Positions 1 through 64,000 of a stretch of 64,000 bases of DNA are shown here, in pieces. Position 1 is the first letter of the stretch; every line of letters starts with the position of its first letter. Made by a program: the position numbers and the translations under genes. The stretch is taken from contig OY848918.1 in the NCBI GenBank assembly GCA_963693285.1, positions 4,469,876 to 4,533,875 on the forward strand, read 5' to 3'. The DNA is from Xestospongia muta (taxonomy: Eukaryota; Porifera; Demospongiae; Haplosclerida; Petrosiidae). The notes under the pieces were generated by a model. That model was not told where the DNA came from, made no database searches, and saw nothing but the letters and a program-made list of their open reading frames with translations.

Positions 1-1897
1 TCCTCCTCTTCAATATCATAACATCCATATTATATATACCAGTAGGTATATCATATGTACATCCAATTACTGTACTAGTACATACTGGAGAACACATCAA
101 TGATAAGTTAGTACTGTAGGTAGAGGAGGTTAATGAAATAAGACAACCTTTAACAATAGCTCCTTTTATAAAATGACAGCTGTAACATGTTTTACCAATA
201 TTACTTAGGTCATTATATAGGGTAGCTTCAGTAATATCATATGTACCTAGTCATATATACAGTCAATTTAATGGCCAATGGTATTATAAATCTTACTTAA
301 TGGTAATGTGTTTTTTGAAGTGATAACAAGACCAGATGAGTAGGCCAAGCTGAGTCTTGTCTCCCATATCTGATTTTCTGATAGATTTAGTTGTACTAAA
401 GCTGTTATCTTTGTCATCAAAACTGTTATTTCCTGATCAGATAAAGTTAACAACAATGTTTTGTTTGATCCTAGCAACTGTATGTTAATTGACGCAACGA
501 AATTTATACATTGCTACAAATAAAAATAGAAACATATAATATATATACACACACCACGTATGTGCATACTTGACTAATTGTGGCTTGTACACTGGAAGTC
601 CATGATGAGTTCAATGACCTACTGATTACTATAATGTCCCAACTGGTTAAATATGCTGATTAAATTTTAACTTCATTGATATAGACTCATAATATGATAT
701 TATATCTTACCCTTTGGAAGTATAATGGCTTGACTTGTTACATCTCCTTCTCCAGCTGAATTATTACCAGCTACACTAATCGTATAGTTACCAAATTGAC
801 TGGGACAATAGATCCAGCTGGTAGTATTACTAGTTGTAGTATATTGTGTATTATCTCCTTCATTAGTGACATTAATAATATAACCATATATAGGTACTCC
901 ATCAAGAGAGAAAGGAGGAGACCAGGAACAGTTTATACAACAATGACCTTGTCTGGTACATGTTAAGTTGCCAACTTTTGAAAGTTTACCTTTTAAATAA
1001 CAATTTACAAGTTAATGAATTAATTTGATGTACATACCTTGTATTATTAGTATACACTGAATAGTATTGAAATAGATTTTATTATTTACATATCCTGCAG
1101 CAACACACTTTACTACTGTATTGTTATATTGAGGGTAGCCAGGTATTGTAAGACTAGAAGAAGAAGTTGCTGTTCCAACTGTAACAATACCAAGTTGAAC
1201 AATAGCAATATTTGTTGAAAGAGAATTATTGACTGTCCAAGTAACAGTCACACCAGTATGATCCACTGAACATTGGTAATGTGCTAGTTGATAGACTCCA
1301 ATGTTAGGAGATGGAGAAAGTATGAACTGAACAGCTATATAATGAAACAGTATTTTTTTGAATTTCTATACATGATGGTCATACTATACCTTCACATTTA
1401 GTTGTTAAAGTTATTAATAGAAATATCCAAACATTAGTTTGCCTATATTAAAAATGTACACACACACACTTAATACAGTTAGGGTGAATTTCCCAAAGGT
1501 TAGAATTAATTTTTGAACTAAAGTAAAGTGTCAGCTACTTAGATGCAGCCAATAAAATCAAACATATTATGTAGCAGTCTGAACCTTGGACCACATATTT
1601 TCACGCTTAATGTAGGGATCAATATATTAAAATATGCTGATCTGGACTTACTCACTGGGCTCAACATTCTATACTAAAATTAATTTAATTAGGCAAGACA
1701 TGTGTTTGCAAGGTAATATAAATATAAGTTACTGCTGCAGGCATGATATATATTGACTAGCCAACTACCATGCTCAAGTTTCTTTGGATATCGCTGCTGC
1801 TTGCGCATGCAGTAAGTTGCTACATATTATAATAATATACATAAATAGATTTTAAAATTATACTAATTTATGCATCTTCAACTTACCTCGTTGTCAT
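1..1897 (-). CDS. Gene A: Ig-FN3-Cys-rich receptor, 3' end outside window
   Basis: Exons in coding order are 1897-1887, 1442-1390, 1334-1038, 989-711, 628-570, 513-297 and 246-1 (continuing off the window). All introns are GT-AG and the phases chain. Exon 1 codes only MTT plus two bases of an Arg codon; exon 2 supplies a signal-peptide core (VWIFLLITLTT). Residues about 22-120 are an Ig-like domain (AHYQC, VTVTW, VKCVAAG). Residues 121-213 are FN3 (INCSWSPPFSLDG, YCPSQFGNYTISVAG), nearly identical to gene B. Residues 214-305 are a second beta-rich domain over two exons. The last exon has the family CYSCHF and VKGC motifs and closely matches C1 and C2, not B. One base is missing near position 21 relative to those copies, shifting the frame, so the gene may be a recent pseudogene, an allele, or contain a sequencing error. 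The family is a putative cell-surface receptor; the ligand is unknown. Confidence 0.72.
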
Positions 1898-3058
1898 GTT
1901 GAGCTGGTTTCATCGGCCGCTATCAATGGTCATTGTGCGCTACCACAGAAGTTATAAACTTTCCCTAGCAAAGCACGCCATTATTTCTCCTAGTACTAGT
2001 ATTGATTATTTACACAAGAGATCGTCTTATAATTGCTACTGTAGTAAACCACAACTACGCCCGAGGCACAAAATCCACTCCACATAAACAAGCCACAAGA
2101 GAAAAGCAATGACGTTTCATAGAGAGTCAATGTGTGTGATTGAGACAGATATGTCTAACCTAGTCACTCACTCACACACGCATGTCTGCTTCTCGACTTC
2201 CCAACTTGATCTATGTTTATCACAATAATCAGCTACTTTTTAAACAGTTATATATCTGCATAATATAATTAGAATTGATATCAACTTCGCTGTCTTGATT
2301 TCACAGTGGTTAGGGAGTGAAGTTGATATTCACCCTTGGTAATGATTATAGATATCTAACTATAATTATTTTCACTCATGTAGATAACTCAATTGGCAGC
2401 ATCGACACCAATCTTCAACTTTTTATTGCTATTAGGAGATGAAGGTAGGATAATAATGTTAACCACTGAAGCTAAGTCTAATGTTAATATTATTAACAAT
2501 AGACTGATTACTTTATACCTGAATATCACTAATTGAGCTATCAGTTACATTAGTGTTTAAAATAAAGACATTATTTGCAGACAACATCTATTTTTGATTT
2601 TTGCTGGTAAGGCTTATGAGGCCAAAAATGCTCGTTGGCCTTTTTGTTGATAGCCTTATTAGCAATTTTCGTGAAATTTTATAAATACTTAAGTAATCAT
2701 ACACTTATATATATTCATAACCCTATCAATATTCTCTTTCATTATAGGTGTCAATGTTACCTTTGTACCATCTCACAACATCGGAACCAATCAATTAGCT
2801 CATTATCAATGTTGGACAAACCATACTGCTGTTTCTATAACATGGTTAACTGTTAATGGAACTAAGAAGATATCTACAAATTATTTTCCTGATATGGTTG
2901 TAAATGGAGCAGGAACACCTAACTCCAGTCTTACCATACCTGGATACCTTCAATACAATAATACTCCAGTGATTTGTTTCGCTTCAGGACATGTTGATGA
3001 TGATAAATACACTGAATCTATTAATGCTACTCTGAGAATACAAGGTTGTTTTATTTAA

Positions 3059-3098
<40 letters not shown>

Positions 3099-4396
3099 CT
3101 CTCTCTCTGTTACCTTCATATCTCATCAGGTAAACTGGCAGCTATTCAGATACTGTTTGATATAAAGAAGTACTGTATAAATTGTTCCTGGTCTCCTCCT
3201 TTCTCTCTTGATGGAGTACCTATATATGGTTATATTATTAATGTCACTAATGAAGGAGATAATACACAATATACTACAACTAGTAATACTACCAGCTGGA
3301 TCTATTGTCCTAGTCAATTTGGTAACTATACGATTAGTGTAGCTGGTAGTAACTCAGCTGGTGAAGGAGAGATAAATACAACATCAGTAACATTACTTAC
3401 AGGTATAATTGTTGGTTTCAAAATCATTTTAATAAATGGCTTATATTCATAGTAACCATATCTGCTTACGTTGTAGTTGTTGAGAGGGTAACTAGCAATT
3501 GGATCACAAATTATAGTATTGAGGTAATGCTGTGTACTGTTTATTGAGTATATATCAATGTATTTAGAATGCAACCTTTCTGGAAGGTAGACTGTCACAT
3601 GTACATGCTCACTCAACTCCTGTTAATAACGATACATCTCCTGTTGATGGTCAAGGTAGTGGACAGTTTGAAGGAGATACATTTATAGGAACTGTAAATA
3701 TGGGAGACTTACCAGATAAAAAGAAATGGTTGATATCATTTAGTTTAGTATATAACAGTGGATTATATATCAATGTATCACAACCTACTGAATTTAGTAA
3801 GTTAATATATACTGTATTATCATATGTATATGAAACTTGTCTACTAGCTACATTTGATGTACAAAATGGTAGTTTAAAAGTCAGAGACTCAACTACTGGA
3901 AAAGTTTGTTTTACTTGTCACTTTGTTACTGGAAGTCAAGCACAAGGATGTTATGTTGAATATAAATGTATCGAAGCAGATTTCAATGGAAATGTTACTA
4001 TAAAGAGAACATCAATGGAGACTAATGCTACAACATGTGTGAATAGAATCTATACATGTAATTATAATGTGACATTTTATGATGTCTATCATAACAATAC
4101 AATCTACAAATATGATTATGCTGTAAAACTGGTTAATCGATCTGTGACTGGCCTACTCCTACTCTAATCTATAATAATGAGTTATTATATTAATATCTTA
4201 ACAATATTATATATAGTTCACAATACACTATATAGCAACAAGTCATCTACTAGCAATAATAGGAGGTGGTAAGTTTATCTAAGATTTATAGAACTCTTAT
4301 TATGATTTGCCTTTTATAGTTGGAGGGGGGGTGTTTATACTAACATTGATAGTTGTTGGACTAGTTATAGGAATCAGATGTTACAAAGTTAGTTGA
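1770..4396 (+). CDS. Gene B: Ig-FN3-Cys-rich receptor or secreted protein
   Basis: Proposed exons are 1770-1811, 2384-2444, 2748-3044, 3130-3402, 3587-3796 and 3848-4167, with membrane exons 4217-4268 (or 4236-4268) and 4320-4396. Exon 1 reads MLKFLWISLLLAHA, a signal peptide. Exon 2 adds a second hydrophobic stretch (IFNFLLLLG), so the true first exon is uncertain. Ig: AHYQC, SITWLTVNG, VICFASG. FN3: INCSWSPPFSLDG, WIYCPSQFGNYTISVAG. The Cys-rich exon has CFTCHF and GCYVEYKC but runs into its own stop at 4165-4167, giving a 400-residue soluble form. Phase-0 donors inside it (for example after TCT before GTGACT) could join the exons coding a strong membrane helix (VFILTLIVVGLVIGI). Start region and 3' end are the weak parts; the Ig to Cys-rich core is secure. 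Confidence 0.65.
1898..2240. promoter_or_regulatory. Possible shared 5' regulatory region of genes A and B
   Basis: This stretch lies just upstream of the gene A start codon (minus strand) and inside the first proposed intron of gene B. By eye it has more G+C and more CpG dinucleotides (CGGCCG, GTGCGC, CGCCCGAGG) than its surroundings. That would fit a promoter of a head-to-head pair. No core promoter element is convincing, so this is inference from position and composition. Confidence 0.3.
3061..3109. repeat. (CT)n microsatellite in a gene B intron
   Basis: An almost pure CT dinucleotide run sits in the intron between the Ig and FN3 exons of gene B, immediately before the FN3 acceptor. On the plus strand it also acts as an unusually long polypyrimidine tract. 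Confidence 0.9.
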
Positions 4397-4744
4397 TAAA
4401 CTCTAAACAATAAATGTGTCACTTCATGACTACAGACGAACTCTCAAAAGAAGAAGTTTTGTTGTACCACCAATAAAACTGAGGAAATGACATAATATAA
4501 ATATGTTTATGTACAATATGATAGTATTATTACTAACAGCTTAAGTTTATACAGAACATCATTCTGTATTATATAAACTAATAGCCTGTTATATGTATAA
4601 TAAACAACATACCTATCATTATGTGAATATCTATTGATTATTGTGAATGGTTCAAATTATAACCAGCTCAATACTTCATCAGATCAATTATACTGATATG
4701 ACTCCTTTACTTAATGGCTGTTCTTCCTAATCTCTGCTCTATAG

Positions 4745-5037
4745 TACCATACAATACAGTAGTACACGAGACAACAATAATGGAACAATATAATTTAGTG
4801 CAACAATATCAGTCAGGACCATCTGATGAGGAGTATGCCAGACTTAACACTAATGAGTATCTACTACCATCTATCCAACTTAACCAGATATACTATACTG
4901 ATATGACTCCATCATATAATAGTCCTGTTGCTCCTCCTACTCTCCATTCTATAGTACCATATAGTACAGTAGTACATGAGACATCAATAATAGGACACTG
5001 TCAGGTGATGATATATGACTTGTCATGTCACCATTAG
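4745..5037 (+). CDS. Candidate cytoplasmic-tail exon with many tyrosine motifs
   Basis: A pyrimidine-rich acceptor ending CTCTATAG precedes an open frame that starts at phase 1 (reading VPYNTVVHE) and ends at a TAG at 5037. It carries repeated short motifs: VPYNTV and IVPYSTVV (both fit the ITIM pattern V/I-x-Y-x-x-V), EQYNLV, EEYARL, NEYLLP and YYTDM (the YxxM pattern bound by PI3-kinase p85). It has no signal peptide or membrane segment and lies about 350 bases after the gene B membrane exon in the same orientation. The frame upstream of the acceptor is broken relative to the copy at 5328-5466. It is either the gene B tail exon, joined through a weak donor near 4379-4392, or a leftover tail of a lost receptor. 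AATAAA-type signals at 4472 and 4599 could end gene B earlier. Confidence 0.45.
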
Positions 5038-5281
5038 TAGGTAGTGTAAAATACATAGGTGGAATAGGTGTTGAAGTATGAGAATGACATTTGTTGAGTA
5101 CTGTCAGAAACTTGGGTACTAGCATGTACGTTATGATTAAGAAATTGTAAGTTAAACTACATGAAAAACGTTTCAACATCACAGCTACAGGCAAAAGTAC
5201 AATGTCATGAAAAGTTGAAAAACAAGAATCTGAAGTTATTGGAAACTAAAACTAAACTAACTGTAATTATGTCAATATCTT

Positions 5282-6346: not shown

Positions 6347-6789
6347 TTATATTACTTATTATACCAGTAGATAAAGGTATTAACATTGGTAGAATATATT
6401 ACAGCTGTCATTTTATAAAAGACGTTTTTGTTAAAGGTTGTCTTATTTCATTAACCTCCTCTACCTACAGTACTAACATATCATTGATGTGTTCTCCAGT
6501 ATGTAGTAGTATAGTAATTGGATGTACATATAATATACCTACTGGTATATATAATATGTATGTATATGATATTGAAGAGGAGGATACATTATCAGATGAC
6601 TGGGCAATATCATCTACTAATATCACTATTACTGGAATTGAACCAACTTACCTACCTATGTATAATAAAGTATTCTAATCACATTACATTTTATAGTTAG
6701 AATATTAATTTATATATTTGTTATGTACAGGCAATTTAGTGGGTGTGTCAGTTCTACTGGGATATATGCCTATATGTATGGAACTGTAG
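6347..6789 (+). pseudogene. Receptor fragment: Cys-rich exon plus truncated membrane exon
   Basis: 6347-6678 encodes a Cys-rich exon closely related to C1 and C2 (YYSCHFIK, VKGCLISL, YNMYVYDIEEED). 6731-6789 is the start of the matching membrane exon (NLVGVSVLL), which then diverges and stops at TAG. No Ig, FN3 or signal exon lies upstream on this strand. The Cys-rich frame itself is still open, so decay is recent or the exon has been kept by exchange. It most likely remains from a duplicated receptor. Confidence 0.7.
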
Positions 6790-7394
6790 TTTACTATCTT
6801 AGTATAATAAACTATAAAATAAATGATTTAGATAAATGTCAGTGAAACATTGATAGGAAACATATTGGAATGATATAGCACTAATAGATAAAATCCCCTA
6901 AATATATATATAATCATTGTAATTAGTTTATAAGTAATTAAGGACTATGAAAAAACACTACTGTTGATCATTGTCTTATTATGACACATTTAGTACACCT
7001 TAGGTATTGATTTCTATATATTAGTGACATCTCAAAATTTTCTTACCATTACATATTACATTATTATTCTAATATGATCCTTTCAATTTACTCTTACAGT
7101 TTATTTAAATATTTATCTTTCCTTCCTACATTAGGCTGTAACCACTTGACTAATCGACTGTAATGTACACTGATAATATAATATAATAATTTTTATATAA
7201 TTTAATAAATAAATGAACAAACTATAGCTGTACTTTTGTGTAAAGTAATAACAGGATTAGAATAAGAATTAAATAAAATAATACACAGACATACACATGC
7301 ACATACAAGCTTAAAGAAACAGAACTCAATACATAATGTAATATATTCACTTATCTAACACTACTACTAGTGTATTATTATACATAATACATAT
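6770..7394. repeat. Segmental duplicate of 20050-20780
   Basis: Sequence after the receptor fragment (from GTTTACTATCTTAGTA onward) recurs with moderate divergence at about 20050-20780, also next to a receptor fragment (19990-20040). No gene is visible inside. Confidence 0.65.
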
Positions 7395-7655
7395 GTACAC
7401 ATACTGATACTCCATTGGGCATCATGGCATGTGTAATAAAACCAATGAGTTCAAACCTCACTGTACCAGGATTACTAAAGTTTAACAACAAAAGAATGAA
7501 ATGTTATACCTCAGGAATTGTTACAGGTGTAGTTTTTATTGAGAGAAGGATTGATACTATATTGAGGACTTGTCACATTCTATATAATAGTTTTTATATT
7601 ATAGGCAAGTTAGATATTGTCACAATTTATATTATTCTATGCCAAACAAACATAA
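7395..7655 (+). pseudogene. Partial copy of gene D Ig and FN3 exons
   Basis: 7405-7568 matches the second half of the gene D Ig exon (LGIMACVIK, PGLLKFNNKRMKC, ASGIVTG-type reading). 7605-7655 matches the acceptor and start of the D FN3 exon. The copy then jumps, at about 7660, to sequence that in gene D lies 3' of the gene (compare 40870-41040). The upstream half of the Ig domain and most of the gene are missing. The substitution of TCA by TAC in the Cys region also alters ASG to TSG. It is a deletion-bearing duplicate, not an active gene. Confidence 0.7.
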
Positions 7656-8684: not shown

Positions 8685-8727
<43 letters not shown>

Positions 8728-10125: not shown

Positions 10126-10134
10126 CTACATGGA

Positions 10135-10214
10135 AATTGGCTATATATAGAACATTGGTTATATATAGAAATTGGCTATATATAGAACATTGGCTATATA
10201 TAAAACATCGGTTT

Positions 10215-10215
<1 letters not shown>
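10135..10215. repeat. ATTGGCTATATATAGAAC minisatellite, locus 1
   Basis: Tandem units of 17-19 bases built on ATTGGCTATATATAGAAC, followed by a long TA/TATG microsatellite to 10281. The same unit recurs at 13620-13770, 17160-17240, 47490-47607 and 52085-52230, always directly left of the AGAACATCAGAATTATAGCT sequence. Confidence 0.85.
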
Positions 10216-10267
<52 letters not shown>

Positions 10268-10279
10268 GTATATGTATAT

Positions 10280-13200
10280 ATATAGAACATCAGAATTATA
10301 GCTGCAACTGAAAATTTCCTTTCTTTATCAAACAATCCCATATACTATTTTACTATATTACTAGTACTATGTGTACAATGTACAAGTAACCAATAACTTA
10401 TATCTAACTAAAAGTTTCCAATGTACTTGTCCATATACGGATATATTGTGATAGCGAATACTAATTGTGTGGCCTTCATTAACTTCGAATTGTATACTTA
10501 CCGATTGTGTTTTTTCTTAGTATTATATTATTACATATCATATGTTATTAAACAAGACATTAAGATCTATTAACAATAGCAATCAATAAACGCAAAAAAG
10601 ATAGGGTATGTTTGATATCACAAGTAGTTAACTAATTATAATAAAACATGAAAAACTATTATTGTTTGTGTTTATTTAATTAGTTATGTTAATAATACTC
10701 TGAGGAGTTCAAATCTTATTATAACATCAAAACCTATGACTTATAACAAAACACATCAGCTTTATTACAACATTAACAGCATTAATTAATTATAAACTTA
10801 ATCTTATTAATAATAGGAATTATATTTTATTCATATATGAGTCATATATAGATTGTACACACAAAATATAAGCTAGCTAAACAGCTATCAGCTTGTACAA
10901 GTTTTGTCTCATTTAGGAACTGATAGATAATCACTGTTAAACTTCATTAACATAAGACGGACCTACAAAAGACAACATAAAATGGAAATAATCTCTGTTA
11001 TGTTCTCTCATTGATATAACAATGTTAGTTATCATACTAATGTTATGTAACAACTTACTGATATTTGAATAAATGATTGTCTCTCTTTCATCAGCTTTAG
11101 CTAATGAAAATTGGTCACTGATCACACAATCTTGTCCCCCAATGCTGTCTCTTATAAATATTAGTATTAATACAAGTTTACACTTAACAATGACTGTGAT
11201 TTAAATAAGGTTATCACACTGATCATAGAGATAATACAGTGGAGTGACCCCAGGTGACATAAAAAGCTGTTTATTTATGAACACCTTGCGTGTAACTATG
11301 TACATTTGTTAGTCTAAAGTGGGAATAAAATAAATGTAGCTTATCTTTGTAATTGTAATCAACAAACACACAATAGAAGGTAGATTGATATCACAAGTAG
11401 TTACCTAATTAATTTATTACATGAATGGTCACTATAGTATGTGTTCATCTAATTAGGTATGTTTGTCACGCTATAGTTTTTATGACATGAAAGATCTTGT
11501 TATCATGTTGCCTTACCCTACCTGAACTAGGTGACATTAGAGAGAACCATCAAGGTGTCACTGGTGTGCTCCAACTCTAGTATGAAACTAAAAAATGTCC
11601 ACATACCTAGGACATATTGTTGATGATATTGAGGTCATAAACAAGAAGATGGAAATGATAAATTGTGTAGTAATGTGAGTAATTAACAAACAGCTGTCAA
11701 TTAAAATGCATGTATTGTTCATCTCTTTTTGTATAGCTTGTCTTATCAGTAGATGAGATAATTGCTACATACCATATTGTTATCTGCATTATAACTTATA
11801 ATCATTGACATATGTAAAAATGGGCTGACTATCATTATCAACTAAACCAAAGGAGAGTTCTTCAACTGGCTTCTGCAACTGAAAATTTACCTTCTTTAGC
11901 ATAATATTCCCATACAGTACTTTAATTTACTACATTACTGATATTATCTGTTACAAATAACACTAACAAAAGGTCCCAATATACTGGTCCATATACGGAC
12001 ATATTGTGATAGTGAATACTAATTGTGTGACCTCCATTAACTTCTAATGGTGTACTTACTGATTCTGTTTAAATGATTGTCTCTCTATCATCTTTTTTAT
12101 CTATATCTTATTTGGAGGAAAAGTAACAGATTAATAAAATAAAATAGTAATTTTAGCTCTTATAATACTGTGGTTTAATGTGATTAAAATGTTATGACAA
12201 GGTTGATTATATACATACCATAGTAGAGTGATGCCTGGCAACATAAGAAGCTGTTCAATTTCTGACTGCACTACATCTAGCTGTGTACATGTGATAGTCT
12301 AGTGCTCTATATAAACATATAGGATATAATAATAGTACAGACAACTCTATCAATGTAATACATTAATATTATTTGACTATATAGTTGACAATACACTATA
12401 GCCCACCTGTAATATTATATATATGTTCCTCCAATAATATCATTGGGACAGGAATATAATCAAGTTAACATTGTCTTATGTGGTATTCCATATCTCTGGT
12501 GAAGGGGGAAGGGCCATTCAAACACTGTAATTTGTTATACGAGGAATACATATCACTATCATCATGCTTGGACTTTTTATAGATTTATTGTTCCTTTAAA
12601 AGTTATTTCAGTAAATTTAATAAGTAACAATTGCATTTTAAAATATAACAATAATAATTAATGATAGTTTCTCTTTCAGTTTCTGTCAGTTTTTACAAAT
12701 CTTGTGAAAGGAGAGCTAAGAATATAGAATCACAGGAGAAGGTAATAACAAGTACAAACTAAACAAAGAGGACAACTCCTGTTAGTGTAATTAAACTATA
12801 GAAGTGACAGATAACATTTTGTCATTTGTAATGTATATAGTGTCTGTTATTATAAGACTGAGTAATGGATCACTGTGCTATATTTTGGCTTGGGAATATA
12901 ACAGACAACAAGCTATTAATATTATGTATAATAGTGTAAATTACTCATCACTTGTATCTCTTATGGAGCCATCTATATTAATTATGTTATAACGTATATG
13001 ACTCAAAGATTATACACAAAATTAGGTTAAACAGTTTGTACTATTTTTGTAAAGTAATTGATATCTCCTTTAGATAACTGCAGCACCTAGTTATTCTCAG
13101 CCACCTGTTATATGTAGCAAAAACCCACATGAACATTGACAATGCAGAGATAGGCAGTGACCATTGACCACAAATTATGTACTACATTGTACATATATTG

Positions 13201-13765
13201 CTACTAGTTCAGTGAACCTCATACCTAATCCAATAGGACACCATTTTAAAAGAGAACAGATAGTATGAAGCGACTTCTGTTAGGTATGACAGATCTACAA
13301 AAGACAACATAAAGTGAACATAACCTCTGTTATGTTTTCTAATTGATATAACAATGTTAGTTATTAGATGAATGTTGTATAACAATAGTAAGTCTTCTGT
13401 AAAGGTAAACATGACATATGGTAGACAACATAACTTCAGTAGTACATGTACATGTACTGAAGTTATACATTAAGTGACACATTATTAGGTTGGTAGTATA
13501 GCATTGACATTGTGATTTATCAATTCATTAGTTGTTTAATGGACTAGGTAACTGGTATAAGATATACTGACTACAATTGAAGAGGTGGATCAGAACTCTA
13601 TACAAACAACGTTATATGAAATTGACTATATATAGAAATTGGCTATATATAGAAATTGGCTATATATAGAACATTGGTTATATATAGAACATTGGCTATA
13701 TATAGAAATTGGCTATATATAGAACATGGTTATATATAGAACATTGGCTATATATAGAACATTGG

Positions 13766-13817
<52 letters not shown>

Positions 13818-25302: not shown

Positions 25303-26441
25303 TTAATATTTTATCACACCATATGCAGCACATGGCTTCATCTCTAGTTCAGTAGTAGGTAGTGTATTAGTGATCATATCAACATTCTCATATTGAGATA
25401 TAACTTGATGAGGGATAGTATCTGTTAGTGGATTAACAGTAGATGGTACAGTACCTACAATGGATAATATCATTTACAAACTATTCCCACTGTTAGTATT
25501 ACCTTGTCTCACTGACTTAGTTCTTCTTATCCAACATATCACTATATGTACTAGTAAGGTACATACCAGTAATAGAATTGACACACCCACTAGACTACCT
25601 ATGAATACAGTATTATATATATTATTATTATACTAAAGTATCTACATTACCTCCAATACTAGTCCATGTATTATCATCTAGTGTATCTATTTTAGTATAA
25701 AAATATGAGGTCAGATCATATGACATATGATTTATTTATTAAAACATTATGTTTACTCACAAGTCAAATAGTCATATGCTGTCATAGTAATCGCTGTAGT
25801 AACTAGTGCTGTAACCATGGAAACAGAACATGATAATGAACTAGTCACTTTAAGAGATGGGCAAATTGTAGCAGTCACTTCAAGAGATGAGTGAGTTGGT
25901 TCCAATCCAGTAATAGTGATATTAGTAGATAATATTGCCCACTCATCTGATAATCTACCCTCCTCTTCAATATCATATACATACATATTATATATAACAG
26001 TAGGTATATCATATGTACATCCAATTACTGTACTACTACATACTGGAGAACACATCAATGATATGTTAGTACTGTAGGTAGAGGAGGTTAATGAAATAAG
26101 ACAACCTTTAACAATAGCTCCTCTTATAAAATGACAGCTGTAACATGTTCTACCAATATAATTTACATCATTATATAAGGTAGCTTCAGTAATATCATAT
26201 GTACCTAATGAATGGACAATGAAACATAATACAAACATTGTTTATTGTGTTAGTATCATAACTATTATAGCCAAAATCAGTTATGATTGCTGAACATACT
26301 TACTCAATTTTATGGAACTTGATACTACAGTACTCACTCCACTAGAATAAAACAAATCCATTGAAACTTTCCAGATTACATTCTCTGGTAGCTCGTCCAT
26401 ACTAATTTCAATAGTGGTTACAAGGGCACCATGATCAGTAT
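25303..26441 (-). pseudogene. C1: 5'-truncated receptor related to C2
   Basis: Exons in coding order: a partial second-domain exon 26441-26304, Cys-rich 26204-25761, small exon 25686-25651, membrane exon 25598-25503 (GVSILLLVCTLLVHIVICW) and tail 25454-25303. The splice sites and phases equal those of C2. The tail reads ISQYENVDMITNT and ends CAAYGVIKY. The second-domain exon breaks off at about 26441, with a stop just beyond, where sequence switches to a block also found at 43190-43420. No signal, Ig or FN3 exon exists upstream, so a secreted or membrane product is unlikely. The 3' half is undamaged, suggesting recent truncation or use as a donor for exchange. Confidence 0.75.
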
Positions 26442-29400
26442 TTAACTGTTAGAGTATTTAACTATAGAGAGTGATATCCTGATACCACTAATGAGATATA
26501 TCTTTGTTTCTTATGTTGCTTGTCTAAGATATTCTGTAAACTCTCCTGGTATAGGTTTGCAATATATAGTGAAGCTAACTAATACCATTGGGTGAATTAA
26601 AACACTCAGGTAATATATTAAGTAATAAAACACTCCATATTATATTGTACTGTGTTTATACTATAGTAATTGACTGTTATAACCAGACTAGAGAGAAAGT
26701 GTGCTATTAAATTTTTATGGTTTGGGTGTATTCCTAGATGAGACATCTATTATGGGTAATACATTACAGTCTATCTTAAGCCACTTTTTTGAGACATATC
26801 TCTTCCTAAATTGTGTTTACTAGTTATGTAACATGTACTACTATATTTAGTGTGTGTTGCTAAGTAACTGGTTACATGAAAAAGCATCTTAAGCTTACAA
26901 CTAATTTAGTAAATCCTATATGAACACCTAATACAATTATTGAATGACTTAATTGTATTATAAACAACCCTATATATGTACAATATGTACTTGATACTAT
27001 TGTTGTATTCAGCATTTTGAATTCCCTACATATTGTCAGGAGTATCTATAGAATATCACACACACAACAATTAGACTTCATCTACTCTCATTGCTTTGTT
27101 TGTCCCTACAGGAGAACGTCAACTATTATTAGTTTATTGTCATGTTAAACTCTCAATGAATATTGTCTTCTTTTCCTTTACCTATAACTTCACACTTGAC
27201 AAGTAGGCCAGTTCAACACACCTATTGTAACAAATCTAGTGGGGCTGTTACGATAGTAAACAATATAACACTAATAACTATCCAGTGATCCATTTTAGTG
27301 CTGATACAAGACAATTGTGGTTATAGCGTCCTTCCTTTAAGATGGTAGAGTGGTTATGATCAACCTAGCCTTATTGGAAGAGGGTGAAACACTTAAACTA
27401 AGAAGGTGGCAACTACATCAATGAATTCACTAACAGTAAACCTCTAGAAACTATAAGACTTTAAGTGTTGACTATTATTTAAACAAGAGGTTTGTCTGTG
27501 AAGATAATAGAAAGCCATAATGTGTACACACTGATATTCCCTAATATAACATCATATATAATATGTCACTGTATGTACATTCTATATAGTTAACTCATGG
27601 ACCTAGTACATGATATATATGTTACTATAGTCAAGGAAAGAGAAATTTCTGCGATTAATCAATATTAAAATAGTCACTAATCCAAAGTTTCAATCAATTA
27701 CTGATCAACATCTAATGGTACATAATTTAATACTTCTATTGAACTATATAGTTCTCTAAATCAGGTAGATAGCTTTATCACAATAAACAAAGTATTAATA
27801 TGTATGTCAAATATTACAAAGTTACAACTATACTACTTTCCTCACTACATAATAGAGTTTATAGTTATAATTACTATGTTATGTCGTTACTAGTCATTTT
27901 TACAATATTATTATCACAGTTTATACTAAATGATAACAATTATTATACCTTCCTCCTTCAACAAATTCTTTCCTATCAAAGGGCACATATGAAGTCATGC
28001 AATAATGTAGTGGTGTTGTGTCAGACAACATTCTTTTTTGATGAACAATGTCATAGTGTCAGCTGCTCATAATAGATTATAAAACTAATATTAATATTGC
28101 ATTATATATTGTGATTACAATTTCAAACACACCCATTCATAATATAGTATACACAAATTATAAATACACATGTATATAATGTATTAATGTATGTACATGT
28201 AACTATGGTCTAATGATCTTCAAAGGTATAATTTGTAATAAATTGTTACACACTGTTACTATTGGTATTATTATATGATATGATCATTCATATAATTGGG
28301 TCATATGATCACTTGTGTATCTAGATAGAGTACTGAGGATATTAATACAGAGATATTTATATATGACACTTTGCATTCTTGTAGTGCAGATGATTGGGTG
28401 GATATTGTTTAATAAAGGATTTATGCTACTATATTAATATACTACTACTAACAGTGTACCATAATATGCTAGATATATCGATGTAATTAGGGTAAGTTAG
28501 CTAACTATGTTAATATTGACACCTGTCTTCATTACTCTCTTGTTTACTGGTTTACTTAAGTATTGTGTTGTGTGGATGAGTGAGTAGGATATGCTACTAT
28601 ACTAATATACTGCTAACAGTGTACCATAACATGCTAGATATATCGATGTAATTAGGCTAAGTTAGCTAACTATGTTAATATTGATACCTGTCTTCATTAC
28701 TCTCTTGTTTACTGGTTTACTTAAGTATTGTGTTGTGTGGATGAGTGAGTAGGATATGCTACTATACTAATATACTGCTACTAACAGTGTACCATAATAT
28801 GATGCTAGATATGTTAATGTAATTAGGGTAAGTTAGCTAACTTCACTAATACAATAAATGTTAATATTGCCACCAAAGACTGGAAAAGATGTATCTGTAT
28901 CTCCTCCACATAAGTTATTGATACAAGTAGTGTACATATTAGATAACAATCTAAACATCAACAATGATGTCTATCTGTGGAGGTTGTGTAAATATATTTT
29001 AGCTCACTTCCATTCATTGAACTTAGATGTTATATAGTCCAATATTGACAAAATCTACAAAGCCAAAACTAACATAATCTAAATCTTTGTAATTTATTAC
29101 ACAATAATGAAAGCCATATGTCAGAACCAACCAGTAGACATGTACAAACAATCTCTAATACAATATCACATGATTGATTATATTGACGAATTGAATAACA
29201 CAGTTGATGTACATAATATATACATAATACGTATGTAAATATACAAAGCATAGGGTGAGGTTGCCAACAAAGGAAATTTGTATGTTTACTACTGATCTAC
29301 TTCTAACCAGAAGTTTCCAGTGTAGTGGTCCACTTGTCATGTTAAATGCACCTCGATAGACCAGTAGTTTACATCTTTATGAAGTTATAAATTAGTGACA

Positions 29401-36698: not shown

Positions 36699-38875
36699 TT
36701 AATATTTTATCACACCATATGCTGTACATTTCTTCATCATCTCTACTTCAATAGTGTTAGTGATCATATCAACATTCTCATATTGAGGTATAACTTGATG
36801 AGGGACAGTATCTATTAGTGGATTAACAGGAGACGGTACAGTATCTACAATGGATAATACCATTTACAAACTATTCCCACTGTTAGCATTACCTTGTCTC
36901 AGTGACTTAGTTCTTCTTATCCAACATATCACTATATGTACTAGTACAGTACATACCAGTAATAGAATTGACACACCCACTAGACTACCTATAAACACAA
37001 TATTATATATATTGTTATTATACTAAGGTAATTACATTACCTCCAATACTAGTCCATGTATTATCATCTAGTGTATCTATTTTAGTATAAAAATATGAAG
37101 TCAGATCATATGACTTATGATTTATTCATTAACATATTATGTTTACTCACAGGTTGAATAGTCATATTCTGTTATAGTAATTGCTGTAGTAACTAGTGCT
37201 GTAACCATGGAAACAGAACATGATAATGAACTAGTCACTTTAAGAGATAGCCAAATTGGTTCACGAGATGTCAAAGCACTATTGCATGATGTAGAAATAG
37301 CAGTCATATGAAAAGATGGGTTAGTTGGTTCCAATCCAGTAATAGTGATATTAGTAGATGATATTGCCCAGTCATCTGATAATCTATCCTCCTTTTCAAT
37401 ATCATATACATACATATTATATATACGAGTAGGTATATCATATGTACATCCAATTACTGTATTACTACATATTGGAGAACACATCAATGATAAGTTAGTA
37501 CTGTAGGTAGAGGAGGTTAATGAAATAAGACAACCTTTAACAATAGCTCCTCTTATAAAATGACAGCTGTAACATACTCTACCAATATTATTTAGGTCAT
37601 TATATAGGGTAGCTTCAGTAATATCATATGTACCTAATTAATGGACAATGAAACATAATACAAACATTGTTTATTGTATTAGTATTATAACTATTATAGC
37701 CAAAATCAGTTATGATTGCTGAACATACTTACTCAATTTTATGGAACTTGATACTACAGTACTCACTCCACTAGAATAAAACAAAGTAATTGAAACATTC
37801 CAGATTACATTCTCTGGTAGCTCCTCCATACTAATTTCATTAGTGGTTACAAGGGCTCCATGATCAGTATTAACCATTGCCTGTTTTGTTACACTCCATC
37901 CATCATATATACTAAAAGTTAGGTTTAATGTCATTATTAAACCATTACAGAAATACTAAAGAGGTCATGGAGAGATTATGAGTGAAACATAATAATAGTG
38001 ATGTCATTGAACTACCTTGTATGATGTTGTACAGTTTACAACCCAACCTTGGGGAATTCTTTCAATTGTTATTATAAATTGGTTGATATTGACTATAAAA
38101 GAATAACTTTATAAATAGTATTAATCACTTACATTTGTCAAATGGGATTTTCAACGTCATTATATCTCCTTCTCCCACATTATTAACAGCCGAAATACTA
38201 ACACTATGTTCTCCAAATTTATAAGGACAATATAACCATTCAGTAGTGGTGTTATCAACATTGGTAGTATTCATTAGCTCACCTCCTTTAGTAACATTAA
38301 TGCTATAACTTTTAATATAAGTGCCTATTAGTGTGAATGGTGGTCTCCATCTGATCTCAAAACAACATCTGTTTAGCATAGAATAAGTTAGATTCACAAC
38401 ATCATTTAGTTTGCCTAATTGGTTTATGAAAATAAATCATAGATAGTTTATAGAACGTCTCACCCTGTATTAACAATGTGGCATTTTTTACAGCTACCAA
38501 ACCAGTAAGAGGTCCTGAAGCATAACATGTAACTAGTGTGTTATTTAATTGTGGTAATCCTGGTATAGTAAGATTAGAAGTTGTTGTTCCTATTCCATTT
38601 GTAAAAATGCCCAATTCAACAATAGATGAATCAGTAGATGGTAGTGTTCCATTTAAAAACCAGTGGGTAGTGACACTGGAATGATTTGAAGAACAATAAT
38701 AAACAGCTGTGTCTCCTTCATAGATGTTAGATGAAGGTAAAAAAACTATGTGGACCTGTATACCTTAACAACCAATAAATGATAAACTATTTAGGCTAGA
38801 AAACAATTAAATTCAATTACCTTGCACAGATTGCTTCAACAGCAATATCATAACTATTAATAACGCCAACATCAT
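36699..38875 (-). CDS. Gene C2: complete Ig-FN3-Cys-rich membrane receptor
   Basis: Nine exons in coding order: 38875-38821, 38763-38464, 38414-38133, 38092-38016, 37955-37733, 37633-37151, 37076-37041, 36988-36893, 36844-36699; total 1698 bases, 565 residues, all phases consistent. Signal peptide 1-18 (MMLALLIVMILLL). Ig about 19-118 (EGDTAVYYC, THWFLNG, TCYASG). FN3 119-212 (CCFEIRWRPPFTL, INVTKGG, SISAVNNVGEG). Second beta-rich domain 213-312. Cys-rich domain 313-473 (CYSCHF, VKGCLISL, Ser/Thr-rich end). Membrane helix about 488-507 followed by RRTK. Tail 518-565 has QYENV at Tyr539 and CTAYGVIKY at Tyr560. Known families with this layout are cell-surface recognition receptors; the YENV and YGVI sites resemble SH2-docking motifs. 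Head-to-head with gene D. Confidence 0.82.
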
Positions 38876-38939: not shown

Positions 38940-40812
38940 ATGGAGCGGTATGTGTAAAGAAGATATCTATCGATATATTTTGTTTTGTGATGTTTTAACA
39001 TGTCATGCAGTAGTCGCTTCTGTTTTCCAATGGAGACTAGGTCTATAGCAAATTTGATGTTTGCGCGCGCATGTTATAGACTTTAATAGATTTGTGTTTT
39101 CTTTCTGTTGTTTTCTTACTTTATAAATAATCTGACTTTTAATTCTGAGGTAATATAACAACTCTTACTTTTATCAACGTTTAAGAGTTGTATTTATTGT
39201 TTATATAATAACTTTATGCTATTTATATAAATGAGAAGTTCTGCTTTTATAGACTACAACTTTGCATTGTTATTTTAGGTTGTTTGGCTGTAGTAAATGG
39301 TAAGTCCAAGTATAAATAATAAGCTTTCCTTTTACATATATATACACACACACATATATATATATACCAAGGTAAAATCGAGATTAACTTTCGTCGAGTT
39401 CCCGACAACAACATTTACGAGGGAGATACAGCAGTGTATTATTGCTCCTCAAATAATCGTCGTGTCACTGTCGAGTGGTTTTTAAATGAAACGCTGCCTT
39501 CTACTGATCCTGCATTGGGCATCATCACACATGGAATAAAAACAACTAATTCAAGTCTCATTATACCAGGATTACTAAAGTTTAACAATATAAAAATTAC
39601 ATGTTATGCCTCAGGAATTGTTACAGGTGTAGGCTATTTTGATAGAAGGATTGATACTACATTGAGGATACAGGGTAGGCTATATAATAAGTAATTTGTC
39701 ACATCCTATATAATAGTTTTGTTTGTATGCAGGCAAGTTAGGTATTGTCAAGAATTTACATTATTATATGCCAAACAAATGTTGTTTTGTCATCGTATGG
39801 GAACCACCATTTACACTACCAGATTGTTATATCAAAGGTTATAACATTAATGTTACTAAAGGAGGTGAACTACTGAATACTACTAATGTTGATAACACCA
39901 CAACTGAATGGCAATATTGTCCTGAAAAACATGAAGAATATTATGTTAGTATTTCTGCAGTGAATAACGTGGGAGAAGGGATTATAACGACATTGACTTT
40001 ACCCATTTCTAACTATTATGGTAAATGAATATATTATTTATTTAATAATTTCTTTGCTTTGTTCATTATATAGAAGATATTAATAATGTAGATATAGACA
40101 AGAAAAAGGTGTCAGAAAATGATTGGGAAGTTGTGATCTCTTTAATTGTAAGAAAATTATGGCTTGATACTAGCTATTACTAGTTTTCCTTAGATGTCTG
40201 GAGAAGTTGATAGAAAATGCATTAGGGATATTACATTTAAGAGCACAAAAGTGCCAAAGACTATATCAATATTCTCTGTTCAAGGAAAACAACTTACAGC
40301 TTACTTCAGTACATCAGTCCATAATAAAAAGGGGTTTGATGTTGTAATACAAGTGACATATCTTAATGGACTAAAAGCAAAATCAAAACAATATTTAGGT
40401 AAACTCATTTAATTAAAATGTCATTTTATATATATTTTTTAGTGTTCTTCAGCTCCCCATCACCAATACCATTATCAACACCATCTTTATCACCAGAAGC
40501 TACAGAGACAAGTAGTATGTAATAGAAGATATTACAAATTTGTAATGAGAGCCTCTGTTTCAGGTCTAGGTAATGAACATATTACAAAAAAGAGTTTAAT
40601 CTACCTGTTGCTATCATTGTCTATATTGTCATTAGTAAGTTGTTTAAACAGTAACTGTTATAATGTTATAATTATGATTTTGTAGTGTTACTGATAATTG
40701 GTTTTTCTGCCATTATTTTATGCTGTAAGTTATTAGTATGATGTCATCTGAATTACCTTTTTAAATAGGGTTAATATTATGTAATCACAAGGCAGATAGC
40801 CGTAACACTTAG
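38940..40812 (+). CDS. Gene D: Ig-FN3 receptor with Pro/Ser stalk and short tail
   Basis: Exons 38940-38947, 39253-39299, 39372-39674, 39733-40020, 40074-40147, 40194-40398, 40443-40514, optional 40564-40634, 40686-40724, 40769-40812. Without the optional exon the model is 359 residues and in phase throughout. Exons 1 and 2 give MERLQLCIVILGCLAVVNG, a signal peptide. Ig 19-119 (EGDTAVYYC, VEWFLN, TCYASG). FN3 120-215 (CCFVIVWEPPFTL, INVTKGG, SISAVNNVGEG), closest to C2. Second domain 216-308. Pro/Ser stalk 309-332 instead of the Cys-rich exon. Membrane helix LLIIGFSAIILCWLILC and a tail without tyrosine. Including 40564-40634, itself hydrophobic (LIYLLLSLSILSL), forces a stop after two more codons, giving a C-terminal hydrophobic end. 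Which form is made is unknown. Confidence 0.7.
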
Positions 40813-55932: not shown

Positions 55933-58900
55933 ATGAAAAGGTAAAAGATCACCTTTCTCTATTGTCCATTATGTTTTGCCTAGTAAAGCAAGATTACTGA
56001 CATTGCTCATACTTATTACTATAACGTCAAATCTTGGTGAGTGCTAATCGAGAAAGGTCTAGAAGTGCTGGCAATAAACTAAAGTTTAGGTGTAAACTGC
56101 TATTAAAATATGACGTTCCAATACTGGAAAAATAGATGACCTTATTTTTTGCTCTTGCCGGCTTTATTTAAACTAGACCTTATCTTCATATAATGGTCTT
56201 ACAATGCCACTTATATTTATTAATCAAATTTCTTTTGATAGGTGCATCTCATATCTTCACTATTGTACCAGAGACACAATACGTCTACATCAATCATAAT
56301 GTGACATTTGAGTGTGTTACTAACTTAACTGGATATAGTCTCTCGTTTGACTATAGTGAAACAGTAGATTATACATTGAAACAAACTAATCTACCTGGTG
56401 GTGGTATAAAGATCACAACAACCTTCATTGTAACAAGTGGTAACAATGGTACTAGTGTATCATGTATAGCTCGTTTGAATAATGTATTCGAGGGAATATC
56501 AGATTTATCCTATGTATATGGACAAGGTAAGAGATAAAGGTAACTTACATTTCTAATAAATTAATGTACTGTTATTGGTCAGGTCCTCCTGGAGCTGTCT
56601 CTGATCTCCAAGGATATCAGTTAGATGATTGTTGTATTGTCTTCTCCTGGTCTCCTCCATTGACATTAGGACAGTTAAGTGTGTGGTATCAAGTGACATT
56701 AAGTGTAGGAGAAGAAGTTATGAGATCAGAAGTAATCTATATTACTAACTACACTTATTGTCCTATTGACCTAACTAATGGAGAATATAGACTTAATATT
56801 ACTACAATCAATGGAGCAGGGACTGGAATATGGAACAGTAACACTACAATGTTTAAAACTGGTAAATAGGTTAACTTAAAGTTTATCTTAATTCTAAAAT
56901 TTGAGTTATGGTATGCTAATCATATAGTTAATATATAAACTATATAGTAGAAAATACTTTATTGTTTACTATATAACAATGTGATTGGTATATTTCCATA
57001 TTGTTTTATACTTCTAATTATAAAATTAGCTAAACTATTAAAGTACTATAATATATTAATGTAAAAATAAGTGAGACATGAATAAAGAGTATTGTTATTA
57101 TAATATAACATGTTTGTTTACATTCAATTAGTCAAGCTAGGACTCTATCATGTATGATAACATAATTGTAGTAGTAATATTATATTGTACATTATTACTT
57201 TACTAAATGACTTACATTTTATAGACAAAAAACTTGATATTATCTATAACAATCATTTGACATATCGTCAAGACAGTGAGTGGACCTATCACTTTAAAAT
57301 AATACCAGTGAGTGATCACATAAACTACCAATATGTCACATGAATTACTCTCTTACAGTCCACTCAACTCTGTACTCAACCTATTGTGAATACAACAGTG
57401 ATGAGTCGTAGTTTAAAGAACTCTTCTGATTGTTATAACAGTACTGATGTTACTATTATCACTGACTCTAATGGAAATAAGACCATTGTCTCAAAAATAG
57501 ATCTTCCTCCTAGAGAGAAGTTTACTACATGTACATTTTTGGAGTATGATAGTGGACAGATATTTCAAACTACTCCAGTAGTTACCAGTAAGTATATTGT
57601 ATGTGTTACATATGTCATTACTATCTTTGATAACAGGTAGTCATGATCTACAACAGTTAATTATAACTGATACATCGAATGATATATTATGTCTTCAGTT
57701 TATCTTTGTTAATGGAAGTACAATAAATGAAGTACATCTACATCTACAGTGTGACACTACATATCATCCTTTTGATAATGAAGATCTCTCTCGTAACAAT
57801 CAACTTACCTTTAACAAATGTTTCCATGACATACCTGCTAATAATTGGACATTATATGGATGTGATGGAACATTACCTCAAGGCAACAAGACATGTTCTA
57901 ATCCAGCTGTTATATTAAATAATATTATTATCAACGTAGAAGTTCTTAGTTCATCTACTATGACAGCTAGTACTAGTAGTGTCTCTGATAGTAATAGTGT
58001 ACTGCCTGCTACCTCAACAAGTAATTCAAGTGTAATCTAGTATAACTTGAAGTTTATTGTTGTATTATTTCTCTCTTTGTTTCTAGACATCATAAGTACC
58101 ACTGTTCCCTCTACAAGTAATGGATTGAATATTGGAATGATAATAGTACCTCTTCTTGCAATATTTGTTGTAACAGTTGTCATTGGTATGTATCTATAAT
58201 AATTATGATTAATTATTATGTTAACATCTATTAGGATTATTCGCAGTATTTACAATATTGGGAGTATTGATACGTCTTAATGTGTTAAAGAAATCAATCA
58301 AGAGAAGTAAGTCAAGACAAACATAATTAGTAGTTACTAAACATCACCATAGAACACTCCTTTTCAATTGATGAAATCGATAGCATTAATACACTTAAAG
58401 CATCATCTTTATGTATTAATGAAGACTCAATAAATATCCACTCAACAGAAATGATAAATCAAAGTGAAATTAGAATGATATCATTTGATGGCTGTTCAAC
58501 TGTTATTGAGGTTAGTAGAATTATAATGGTCTATGATTATATTAAACTTGTATGCTTATGTCGTAGGGATCACAGGAGAATCCTGTAAATCACAACATGC
58601 CACTGGCTGAAGAACAAGATGACAATCATGAGGTATAGTCAGGTTCACACTGTTTATAATAATCTTTTGGTAACAGGAATTTCCAATATCTATCAATGAA
58701 ACAAAAAGTATTGATAATCATGAGGTATATTATGTTTGTTACATTATGAAATATCACTCATATATTTATAGTCTCCATCATCAGTACCACTTTATGCTGA
58801 TATTAAAGAAATAAACAATAGACCTAAAGTACCTCCTAGTGTACAAGCTGATGTCACATATTCTGAACTTGCAGTCCAATCCAGTAAGATTTATATATTT

Positions 58901-58962: not shown

Positions 58963-59205
58963 GATTTTGTATAGTTGGAGAGGAAAATCTTGTTAACTAA
59001 CTATATAAACAGTTATTGATATGACAAATGTTTCTGTTTAATGTGATTTGTTATTTGCATTAGTTCTAAAACATAAAATATATAATTTATTGTTGATCTA
59101 GTTGTCTATTTTTTAATAGCAATATTTAACAACTACATAGTGACCATTTCTAGCTTATAAGTATCATGTCTTTTGTATTTTGTGATGTTGACTGGGTCTA
59201 TTATA

Positions 59206-62540: not shown

Positions 62541-62546
62541 TTTATT
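62541..62546 (-). other. Poly(A) signal candidate for gene F
   Basis: AATAAA on the minus strand about 60 bases beyond the stop codon of gene F. Chance occurrence is common in such AT-rich DNA. Confidence 0.4.
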
Positions 62547-62604
62547 AACATATTAAAAACACACACACACAGGAAGAGAGAGAGAGTACACTGTAGTTAG
62601 TTAG

Positions 62605-64000
62605 TTATTGTCTTATAATAACACCATATGCATCACACTCCTTCATTGTCATCATGTCAGTGATAACCTCTCTCTGTTTAGTTCCTACAATAATATATCA
62701 ATGAAATATTTACTATTTTAAGATTGTAGAATGATATTTTATACTTCAATATGAAATGTGAAATTAATATTAAGTCAGAAACTTGATCAATGAACCTTAG
62801 ACCCTAAGTGTATTAATTTCACATTAAAGTATGTTAGTTACAATATTATCATAAATATTATATTACTGTTAATTATAACTCACTGTTGATATATTTTCTA
62901 TAACATATGATAACTGTAATAATATTAACTAATAATGATATTACCATGACAACAGCTGATATAGTAAACAAAGTCACTACATGTTGTAGATGATAATGAT
63001 AATAGATAATATCACATAAGATATATATCACTTACCACTAATGGTAAACTCATTATTATAACATTGTGATATATCAGTAGATGTGGTAGTAATAGATATA
63101 ACTAGAGATAAGTATATTAATTGTTTGATAAATTTAAACAAGGATATAGTTATATACACATACAGAGCTAGCCCCTCCTCCCAGAGAGATACACAAAATA
63201 AGATATATTAACAAAAGTACATTATATAATGGAAGTCATTACCTGTTATAGCAGGTACTTCACTAATACTATCAGAGACACTAGTAGATATCTCATTAGA
63301 TGGACTAGAAGATTTTATAGATATTCTACCAGTGATAGTAATATCAGTTAATATAACAGCTGGATTAGAACATGTATCACTGACATTAGGTAAGACTCCG
63401 TCACATACATATAATGTCCAATTATTACCAGGAGGTATATCACTCAAACATTTAGTAAATATAAGTTGATTGTTACTGAAGACACTGCCAATTAGATAGC
63501 TCTTGTTACTACTCTGTAAGTAAAGATATACTTCATTTATTGTACTTCCATTAACAACGATAAACTGAAGACATAATATATCATTTGATGTATTAGTTAT
63601 AATTAACTGTTGTAGATCATGACTACCTGTTATCAAAGATAGTAATGACATATGTAACACATACAATATACTTACTGGTAACTACTGGAGTAGTTTGAAA
63701 TATCTGTCCACTCTTATATTGTAAGTATACAAATGTATTGAACTTCTCTCTAGGAGGAAGGTCTATCTTTGAGACAATGGTATTATTTCCATTAGAGTTG
63801 GCATGGATAGTAGCATTAGTACTATTATAACAATCAGAAGAGTTCTTTAAATTACAACTCATCACTGTTGTATTCATAATAGGTTGAGTACAGAGTTGAG
63901 TGGACTATAAGAGAGTAAGTCATGTGACATATTAATAGATCGTGTGATCACTTACTGGTAATTTAAAGTGGTAGGTCCACTTGTTATTTTGCCAGTAAGT
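62605..64000 (-). CDS. Gene F: E-like receptor with short AYGVI tail, 5' end outside window
   Basis: Exons in coding order: 64000-63956 (continuing from outside), 63904-63676, 63626-63243, 63101-63036, 62976-62884, 62684-62605. Splice phases equal those of gene E. The first piece ends KWTYHFKLP, matching EWTYHFKIIP in E. The next two exons are close paralogues of the E second domain and Cys-containing domain, with the intron between them identical over 49 bases. A short Ser/Thr stalk exon follows, then a membrane exon (LFTISAVVMVISLLVNIITV) ending CYRKYIN. The tail is only about 27 residues, reading REVITDMMTMKECDAYGVII before RQ and the stop; it matches the C1/C2 tails, not E. Signal peptide, Ig and FN3 exons should lie to the right of the window. 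Confidence 0.78.

Follow-up and report, generated by a model that had tools for sequence, protein, structure and literature searches.

The 64,000-nucleotide stretch of Xestospongia muta chromosome 2 analyzed here (chr2:4469876-4533875; "the window", at its full length) belongs to a 2-Mb complex of tandemly duplicated genes encoding predicted type I receptors, of which it represents about 3%. The receptors combine one immunoglobulin (Ig) domain and three fibronectin type III (FN3)-like domains with a transmembrane segment and a cytoplasmic tail bearing tyrosine motifs. We consider it probable, at roughly 0.6, that the complex is an undescribed sponge recognition-receptor system comparable in its working to the Alr genes of Hydractinia and the FcoR genes of Botryllus, with a ligand-binding face on the Ig domain, tails read by SHP-type phosphatases, and exchange of ectodomain cassettes between loci. 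A first-pass annotation of the window had proposed such an undescribed system in what it rightly took for a sponge genome, and at the level of titles and abstract openings in a mostly open-access literature, no sponge receptor cluster of this kind is described; passages of two reviews on invertebrate immunity likewise name none.

A receptor gene cluster on chromosome 2

Exon families were identified by all-against-all comparison of the open frames of the window, and profiles for six modules (Ig, FN3, a second and a third FN3-like domain designated FN3b and X, the transmembrane (TM) segment, and the tail) were seeded from one complete gene, L017. The genome searched comprised 158,027,690 bases in 28 contigs; the published assembly, odXesMuta1.1, spans 158.52 Mb in 298 scaffolds (PMC12398682), and some of its small scaffolds lie outside the searched genome. 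The interval in which the assembly report gives contig order as uncertain, chr2 16.1-18.9 Mb, is away from the receptor block (PMC12398682).

Queries from the window returned almost exclusively to one region. With the X exon of gene C2, 148 of the 150 matches listed were on chromosome 2, all at 3.64-5.58 Mb except one at chr2:714835; the Ig exon of gene D placed 147 of 150 listed matches at chr2:3.577-5.468 Mb, and the C2 tail placed 148 of 150 at chr2:3.64-5.47 Mb and two on chr14. The tail of gene B (class II, see below) gave 92 matches at E <= 1 and that of gene E (class III) gave 11 (seven at E <= 0.001), every one on chromosome 2. Because these exon families are almost confined to a single block of about 2 Mb (chr2:3.58-5.57 Mb), approximately 1.3% of the 158-Mb genome, their clustering is not a matter of chance.

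Merged matches define at least 282 places with any module, fragments included, at 3.577-5.574 Mb. The merging omitted 16 of the 150 X-exon matches (second pieces of one exon, and matches on contigs C1 and C14 and at chr2:714835), three of the 150 Ig matches (one on C14, two on C5), and two of the 150 class I tail matches (both on C14); the 92 class II tail matches were reduced manually to 48 places, second pieces and weak separate matches (mostly E > 0.001) being left out. A recognized tail lies 1-4 kb downstream on the same strand in 101 of the 147 listed Ig matches (71 of class I and 30 of class II), counted as Ig-tail sets whether intact or not, and no recognized tail occupies that interval in the other 46. 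Since these counts concern the matches listed, and the 282 places include fragments, the total number of genes is given only as about a hundred or more. Loci for further study were chosen among the highest-ranked matches to the X-exon, Ig and tail queries, in order of likeness to the query, and complete genes are therefore over-represented among them.

The neighbors A/B and C2/D suggested a head-to-head class I/class II pair as the repeat unit of the array, but just five adjacent head-to-head Ig pairs within 4 kb occur among the 147 listed Ig matches, so that such pairing is not general. Elsewhere in the block, tail and Ig matches at chr2:3.726-3.744 Mb recur at 3.773-3.791 Mb with an offset of 46,123-46,126 bases and equal scores, a 46-kb repeat that would represent either a recent duplication or an assembly duplicate. 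Outside the cluster, a complete class I gene (L086) lies at C14:2880813-2883816, and a second tail exon is also found on C14.

Gene plan, shared cassettes, and tyrosine tails

The gene model of L017 consists of nine exons encoding 547 residues, with GT/AG introns in phases 1,1,1,0,1,1,1,1, and specifies in order a signal peptide, Ig, FN3, FN3b and X domains, a stalk, the transmembrane segment and the tail. The common exon-phase pattern described in the first-pass annotation is upheld, in that phases were fully worked out on L017 and acceptor, donor and stop checks pass in 28 to 30 of 30 sampled six-module genes, the X and tail acceptors having been checked loosely. The intron between the TM and tail exons is 47-49 bases long in 26 measurable genes (window 36842-36891 in C2), and translation continued into it would terminate within 20 codons in all 28 testable genes; its retention would therefore yield a receptor without tail motifs.

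Two relatives, neither of them named, were obtained at E <= 0.01 when a two-protein alignment was used as query: P0001, from a 643-kb ENA contig, and P0002, of 405 residues, from a 1,654-base JGI contig. P0002 runs uninterrupted through Ig, FN3, FN3b and X, and its domain changes, as read by eye, coincide with the Xestospongia exon joins; should its contig represent a transcript or a gene with few introns, P0002 would independently support the order in which the exons are joined. A search with one protein found no homologue among the 7990 candidates sharing most words with it, in a database of uncertain sponge coverage. A match to a bacterial contig (L121), aligned over only 32 residues, was dismissed as chance.

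The Ig domain possesses the Cys-Trp-Leu-Cys core of the Ig superfamily: all 45 aligned Ig exons have C22, C77 and L96, and at least 90% of them have W33. A profile built from these 45 paralogues reaches solved Ig domains in the PDB (titin Ig at 9e-5, IgD at 0.003), and single members match Pfam below threshold only (Ig_3 in 11 of 45 and ig in seven of 45 at E <= 0.1). The FN3 exon scores 17-19 bits against Pfam fn3, for which the cut-off is 25. By profile, the Ig half of the predicted Ig/FN3 fold is supported, and the FN3 half falls short of the Pfam cut-off. For the Ig domain, AlphaFold gives a weak model (predicted local distance difference test score, pLDDT, 62; template modeling score <= 0.34), and for this reason Ig residues were not mapped on it; its 50 listed matches are, by title, Ig-containing immune molecules. 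The X domain is modeled as a beta sandwich (pLDDT 82) with many FN3 domains among its best structural matches (template modeling scores of ~0.5-0.65) and Ig-type domains as well, none at E <= 0.001. A Pfam scan of L017 detected no sushi domain.

The X exons are of two types, alpha and beta, with identities of 0.83 within alpha, 0.71 within beta and 0.29 between them (52 alpha and 12 beta genes). The Ig exons of the sampled genes do not follow this division: sorted by X type (30 alpha and seven beta genes), they show an identity of 0.71 among alpha genes, 0.67 among beta genes and 0.69 across the two types. The nearest X of a beta gene is beta in 12 of 12 cases, whereas its nearest Ig belongs to an alpha gene in six of seven and its nearest FN3 in seven of eight. 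L017 (class I) and L027 (class II), which lie 0.2 Mb apart, share 88.7% DNA identity over 629 bases comprising the Ig exon, the following intron and most of the FN3 exon; in protein, 147 of 183 residues are identical over Ig and FN3, versus 51 of 185 beyond. The nearest-neighbor pattern and the L017/L027 identity together indicate that exchange or conversion has distributed common Ig-FN3 cassettes among the tail classes. Seven sets combine a beta-type X exon with a class I tail (Ig-XB-T1), which indicates that tails have been exchanged as well. The common ectodomain on different signaling parts that characterizes paired receptors is present for Ig and FN3 only, as the membrane-proximal domains differ.

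Three discrete tail classes can be distinguished. Class I, the dominant one, has the form DTVPSPVNPL..PQYENV..AAYGVIKY, with the motifs YENV and AYGVI; class II has six YxxPhi motifs, three of them resembling the immunoreceptor tyrosine-based inhibitory motif (ITIM), with the consensus INYTDV, VPYSTV, EQYSLV, EEYARL, PMYSTL and SQYSTL (n=14); and class III has LYADI or LYVD[IV] followed by VTYSE[LI], VIYSEL or, in two copies, VKYWEV. The first-pass annotation had described the tails as diversified and drawn a parallel with receptors whose tails are of ITIM or activation-motif (ITAM) type. Tails with different tyrosine motifs do exist, but their diversification is a window-scale impression, because the classes are few and one predominates. 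The strict ITIM, [ILVS]xYxx[ILV], occurs three times in the class II representative, once in that of class III, and not at all in that of class I; no ITAM spacing was noticed in the tails, a feature for which no dedicated search was made. Ten YxxPhi motifs occur in the three representative tails taken together, where shuffled tails would give 3.6 (summed P 0.0003, a generous value because the tails had been picked for their tyrosines), and the excess is significant alone only for class II (P 0.008).

Among 63 aligned class I tails, each of the two tyrosines is retained in 62, and they are spaced by 23 residues in 54 of the 62 tails in which both were found. This conservation was rejected as proof of constraint because the rate of synonymous change (dS) is low as well, the class I tails being alike partly through youth, and only the contrast between motif and non-motif codons was therefore used. 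The ratio of nonsynonymous to synonymous change (dN/dS) is 0.35 at motif codons and 1.15 in the rest of the 63 class I tails, with random windows as good in ~1%, and 0.49 and 1.12, respectively, in 14 class II tails, with random windows as good in 2-3%. This contrast, which agrees with the importance that the first-pass annotation attached to the tyrosine motifs, is the best evidence that the tails signal.

These measurements bear on a different account of the block, in which it is a mostly dead, recently amplified array, a playground of gene conversion with few working members. The excess of places with any module (at least 282) over the far fewer full sets, the many matches with stops, and dN/dS values of 0.53-0.87 by module in 30 genes would fit such an array. 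The constraint on motif codons and the intact splice sites of the six-module genes argue against it, though the latter 30 genes are perhaps biased toward intact copies, having been ranked by likeness to one X exon or tail, and we regard a dead array as improbable. Ig-FN3 proteins often serve adhesion, and the genes could also encode molecules for adhesion in development or within tissues, their high copy number being of no functional consequence. According to a review, adhesion and recognition between cells are the main roles of the sponge Ig superfamily (PMC11999971). Adhesion proteins would not usually be expected to number about a hundred or more loci, to exchange cassettes, or to be constrained in their tails at tyrosine motifs only, and we give this explanation little weight.

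Candidate partners for the tails are encoded in the same genome. The coordinates of SH2 and phosphatase matches point to five SH2-SH2-phosphatase (SHP-type) genes: one in a single open frame at chr5:8741067-8742560, a tandem array of three at chr3:11956215-11961741, whose members likewise each fill one open frame (571, 567 and 541 aa), and one divided into exons at chr8:8076976-8078868. The mammalian complement is two such genes. The five predicted proteins are the expected readers of the receptor tails. Tandem arrays of long open frames with a single SH2 domain, at C8:6.53-6.58 Mb and C6:0.115-0.238 Mb, may encode candidate Src-type kinases. Dense arrays of tyrosine-phosphatase domains are also present (C11:3.76-3.99, C7:0.31-0.72, C12:0.98-1.34 and contig C2:9.41-9.70 Mb), with fn3 matches in or near those on C7, C11 and C12, a pattern that a parallel expansion of FN3 receptor phosphatases would produce.

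Receptor genes of the window

The first-pass annotation had recognized clustered paralogous receptor exons in the window, and open-frame comparison and profiles confirm its Ig, FN3, membrane-proximal, TM and tail exons. The tail motifs that it named are likewise present: C1 and C2 carry YENV and AYGVI, B has a multi-tyrosine exon, E carries YADI and VTYSEL, and F carries AYGVI. Its single ectodomain plan for A, B, C2, D, E and F holds as far as the exon families are common to them; all six profile-recognized modules occur in C2 only, B and E having an ectodomain, TM segment and tail with membrane-proximal domains other than those of C2, A and F being cut by the window edges, and D being partial. 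Coordinates below are those of the window, and exons were recognized by profile match unless otherwise indicated.

Gene C2, on the minus strand, comprises a signal-peptide-like exon read from the sequence (38822..38875), Ig (38462..38758), FN3 (38143..38415), FN3b (37731..37952), an alpha-type X exon whose structure model is an FN3-like beta sandwich (37284..37631), a TM exon (36891..36989), and a class I tail with QYENV and TAYGVI, also recovered by genome search (36702..36842). Gene D, on the plus strand, has an Ig exon (39380..39676) whose best other match by E-value, among the matches listed, is the Ig of C2 (57%), an FN3 exon (39732..40004), and an FN3b-like piece read from the sequence (40251..40391); it ends within this third domain, and the module profiles recognize no X or tail exon. 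C1, on the minus strand, is a 5'-truncated copy in which the module profiles recognize no Ig or FN3, and which retains an FN3b remnant (26302..26448), an alpha X exon (25813..26202), a TM exon (25501..25599) and a class I tail with YENV and AYGVI, again also found by genome search (25306..25452).

Genes A and B lie head to head, and B differs from A in X type and tail. Gene A, on the minus strand, has an Ig exon matching the full model at 157.6 bits (1036..1335), an FN3 exon with 97.5% DNA identity to that of gene B over 197 bp (721..990), an FN3b exon (295..513), and an X exon that departs from the class I frame close to its 3' end and continues to the window edge (2..244). The gene extends past the left edge; on its strand, the next class I tail lies 0.7 kb outside the window, at chr2:4469022-4469186. 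Gene B, on the plus strand, consists of Ig (2747..3046), FN3 (3129..3392), FN3b by partial model match (3625..3798), a beta-type X exon assigned by profile and X-type comparison (3850..4161), a transmembrane segment seen as a hydrophobic stretch (4304..4387), and the class II tail exon used as query above, which contains VPYNTV, EEYARL and VPYSTV (4702..5034). Downstream on the plus strand lie fragments of an X exon (6361..6672) and of an Ig exon (7391..7573).

The remaining pair, genes E and F, is more distant and constitutes an inverted repeat with 83.5% DNA identity over 762 columns. Gene E, on the plus strand, has an Ig-like exon that aligns at 15% identity with the Ig of L017 (56250..56519), an FN3 exon (56582..56851), membrane-proximal domains from a W exon and an X-like exon, placed by open-frame comparison (57344..57941), a transmembrane segment read from the sequence (58122..58196), and the class III tail with YADI and VTYSEL (58787..58879). 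Gene F, on the minus strand and truncated by the right window edge, retains the membrane-proximal domains as an inverted relative of E (63319..63904) and, both read from the sequence, a transmembrane segment (62891..62980) and the tail motif DAYGVI (62617..62640). Direct tandem repeats of ~3.5 kb with 97% identity occupy 10127-18775 and are related to 46-53 kb; Rfam gave no match in the 64-kb window.

Recognition and comparison with known systems

If the complex is a recognition system, the single Ig domain would use its C-F face and FG loop to bind a variable ligand, acting in trans from cell to cell and either homophilically or not. Src-family kinases would phosphorylate the YxxPhi motifs, and tandem-SH2 phosphatases docking on pairs of motifs would dampen a cytotoxic or rejection response. 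Cassette exchange between loci might generate new specificities and couple one specificity to different tails. The proposed face is suggested by the distribution of changes among the 45 Ig exons. Twelve codons, including Cys22, Trp33, Gly66, Asn71, Cys77 and Leu96, show no amino-acid change. Codons 30, 32, 34, 76, 78 and 80, flanking Trp33 and Cys77, show 16-22 changes each, and codons 19, 21, 23, 61, 63 and 65, flanking Cys22 and Leu62, show 1-8 each; the mean per codon is 12.9 in the FG loop and 11.0 in the C'-D stretch. In the standard Ig topology the Trp and Cys are buried and their neighbors point outward, those of Trp33 and Cys77 on the C and F strands and those of Cys22 and Leu62 on the other sheet, and V-type domains bind mostly through the C-F sheet.

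Several observations weigh against this interpretation. The face argument is post hoc and built on standard Ig topology, and some hypervariable codons, such as 5 and 59 (16 changes each), are off the proposed face. No Ig codon is under positive selection at a false discovery rate of 10% and the whole-domain dN/dS is 0.63, so that the variability may reflect relaxed constraint; recombination and parsimony counting weaken such per-codon tests, in which the single passing codon is in the X exon. The dominant tail class lacks a strict ITIM in its representative, whole-tail dN/dS is near neutral (for class I, 0.80 when pooled and 1.06 when counted; for class II, 0.92), and many of the loci are fragmentary or contain stops. 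The main text of an Amphimedon allograft transcriptome study contains neither "immunoglobulin" nor "receptor" (PMC5450542).

Within the recognition interpretation, self/non-self (allogeneic) recognition appears the most likely use, with microbe recognition a close second. Allorecognition is favored because the unrelated loci of Botryllus and Hydractinia pair clustered variable receptors with ITIM-type tails (PMC12065747) and because sponge grafts are specific, sponges discriminating self from non-self with remarkable specificity (PMC5450542). Receptors for microbes, by which the cluster would detect or tolerate symbionts and pathogens and leave allorecognition to other molecules such as aggregation factors, would have the same anatomy, which suits pattern or counter-receptor families, and the metagenome of the assembly paper yielded 55 binned microbial genomes (PMC12398682). 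The likeness to two other invertebrate allorecognition loci (PMC12065747) speaks against this alternative, as does the lack of any pointer to a microbial ligand in the present analysis, and we rate it as rather unlikely. The fullest form of the allorecognition proposal can be offered only tentatively: a sponge histocompatibility complex in which about a hundred or more loci recombine one Ig-FN3 cassette with inhibitory-type or other tails, using the ITIM/SH2-phosphatase allorecognition proposed for Hydractinia and Botryllus with receptors of independent origin. According to a 2025 review, the proteins proposed for allorecognition in sponges, cnidarians and ascidians are not conserved, and their mechanisms are still unknown (PMC12065747). 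One mapped locus whose receptors, motifs and phosphatase partners can be tested would open the sponge self/non-self question to direct experiment in a common reef animal, and would add sponges to the animals that use tyrosine-motif recognition.

Vertebrate paired Ig receptors (LILR, KIR, SIRP, PIR) place near-identical ligand-binding parts on different signaling halves, the same joining logic as in Xestospongia classes I and II, but on a different domain plan. Aggregation factors are extracellular proteoglycan-type molecules that, unlike the Xestospongia receptors, are not known to carry a cytoplasmic tyrosine tail. Aggregation factors have been named in connection with sponge allorecognition (PMC5450542). 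Like the complex described here, Hydractinia Alr is a cluster of genes for Ig-superfamily surface receptors that cross the membrane once, and many of its members resemble pseudogenes (PMC11067881); for this family, ITIM/ITAM-type motifs are reported (PMC12065747). Compared by description, Alr comprises 40 or 41 loci (PMC11876637, PMC11067881) and the Xestospongia complex has more, with at least three tail classes and one Ig and three FN3-like domains; the ectodomain plan, Ig-FN3-FN3b-X, is not the Alr type made of V-set/I-set Ig domains only. Botryllus FcoR is also clustered (53 loci), with proteins of 520-610 aa (547 aa in L017) and tails bearing ITIM, hemITAM and core YxxI/L/V motifs (PMC12065747), but its ectodomain consists of a variable Ig, one sushi and two C2 Ig domains. 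By sequence, the Xestospongia receptors are not filed under the FcoR or vertebrate families or, on description, under Alr; in design, they resemble these known recognition systems.

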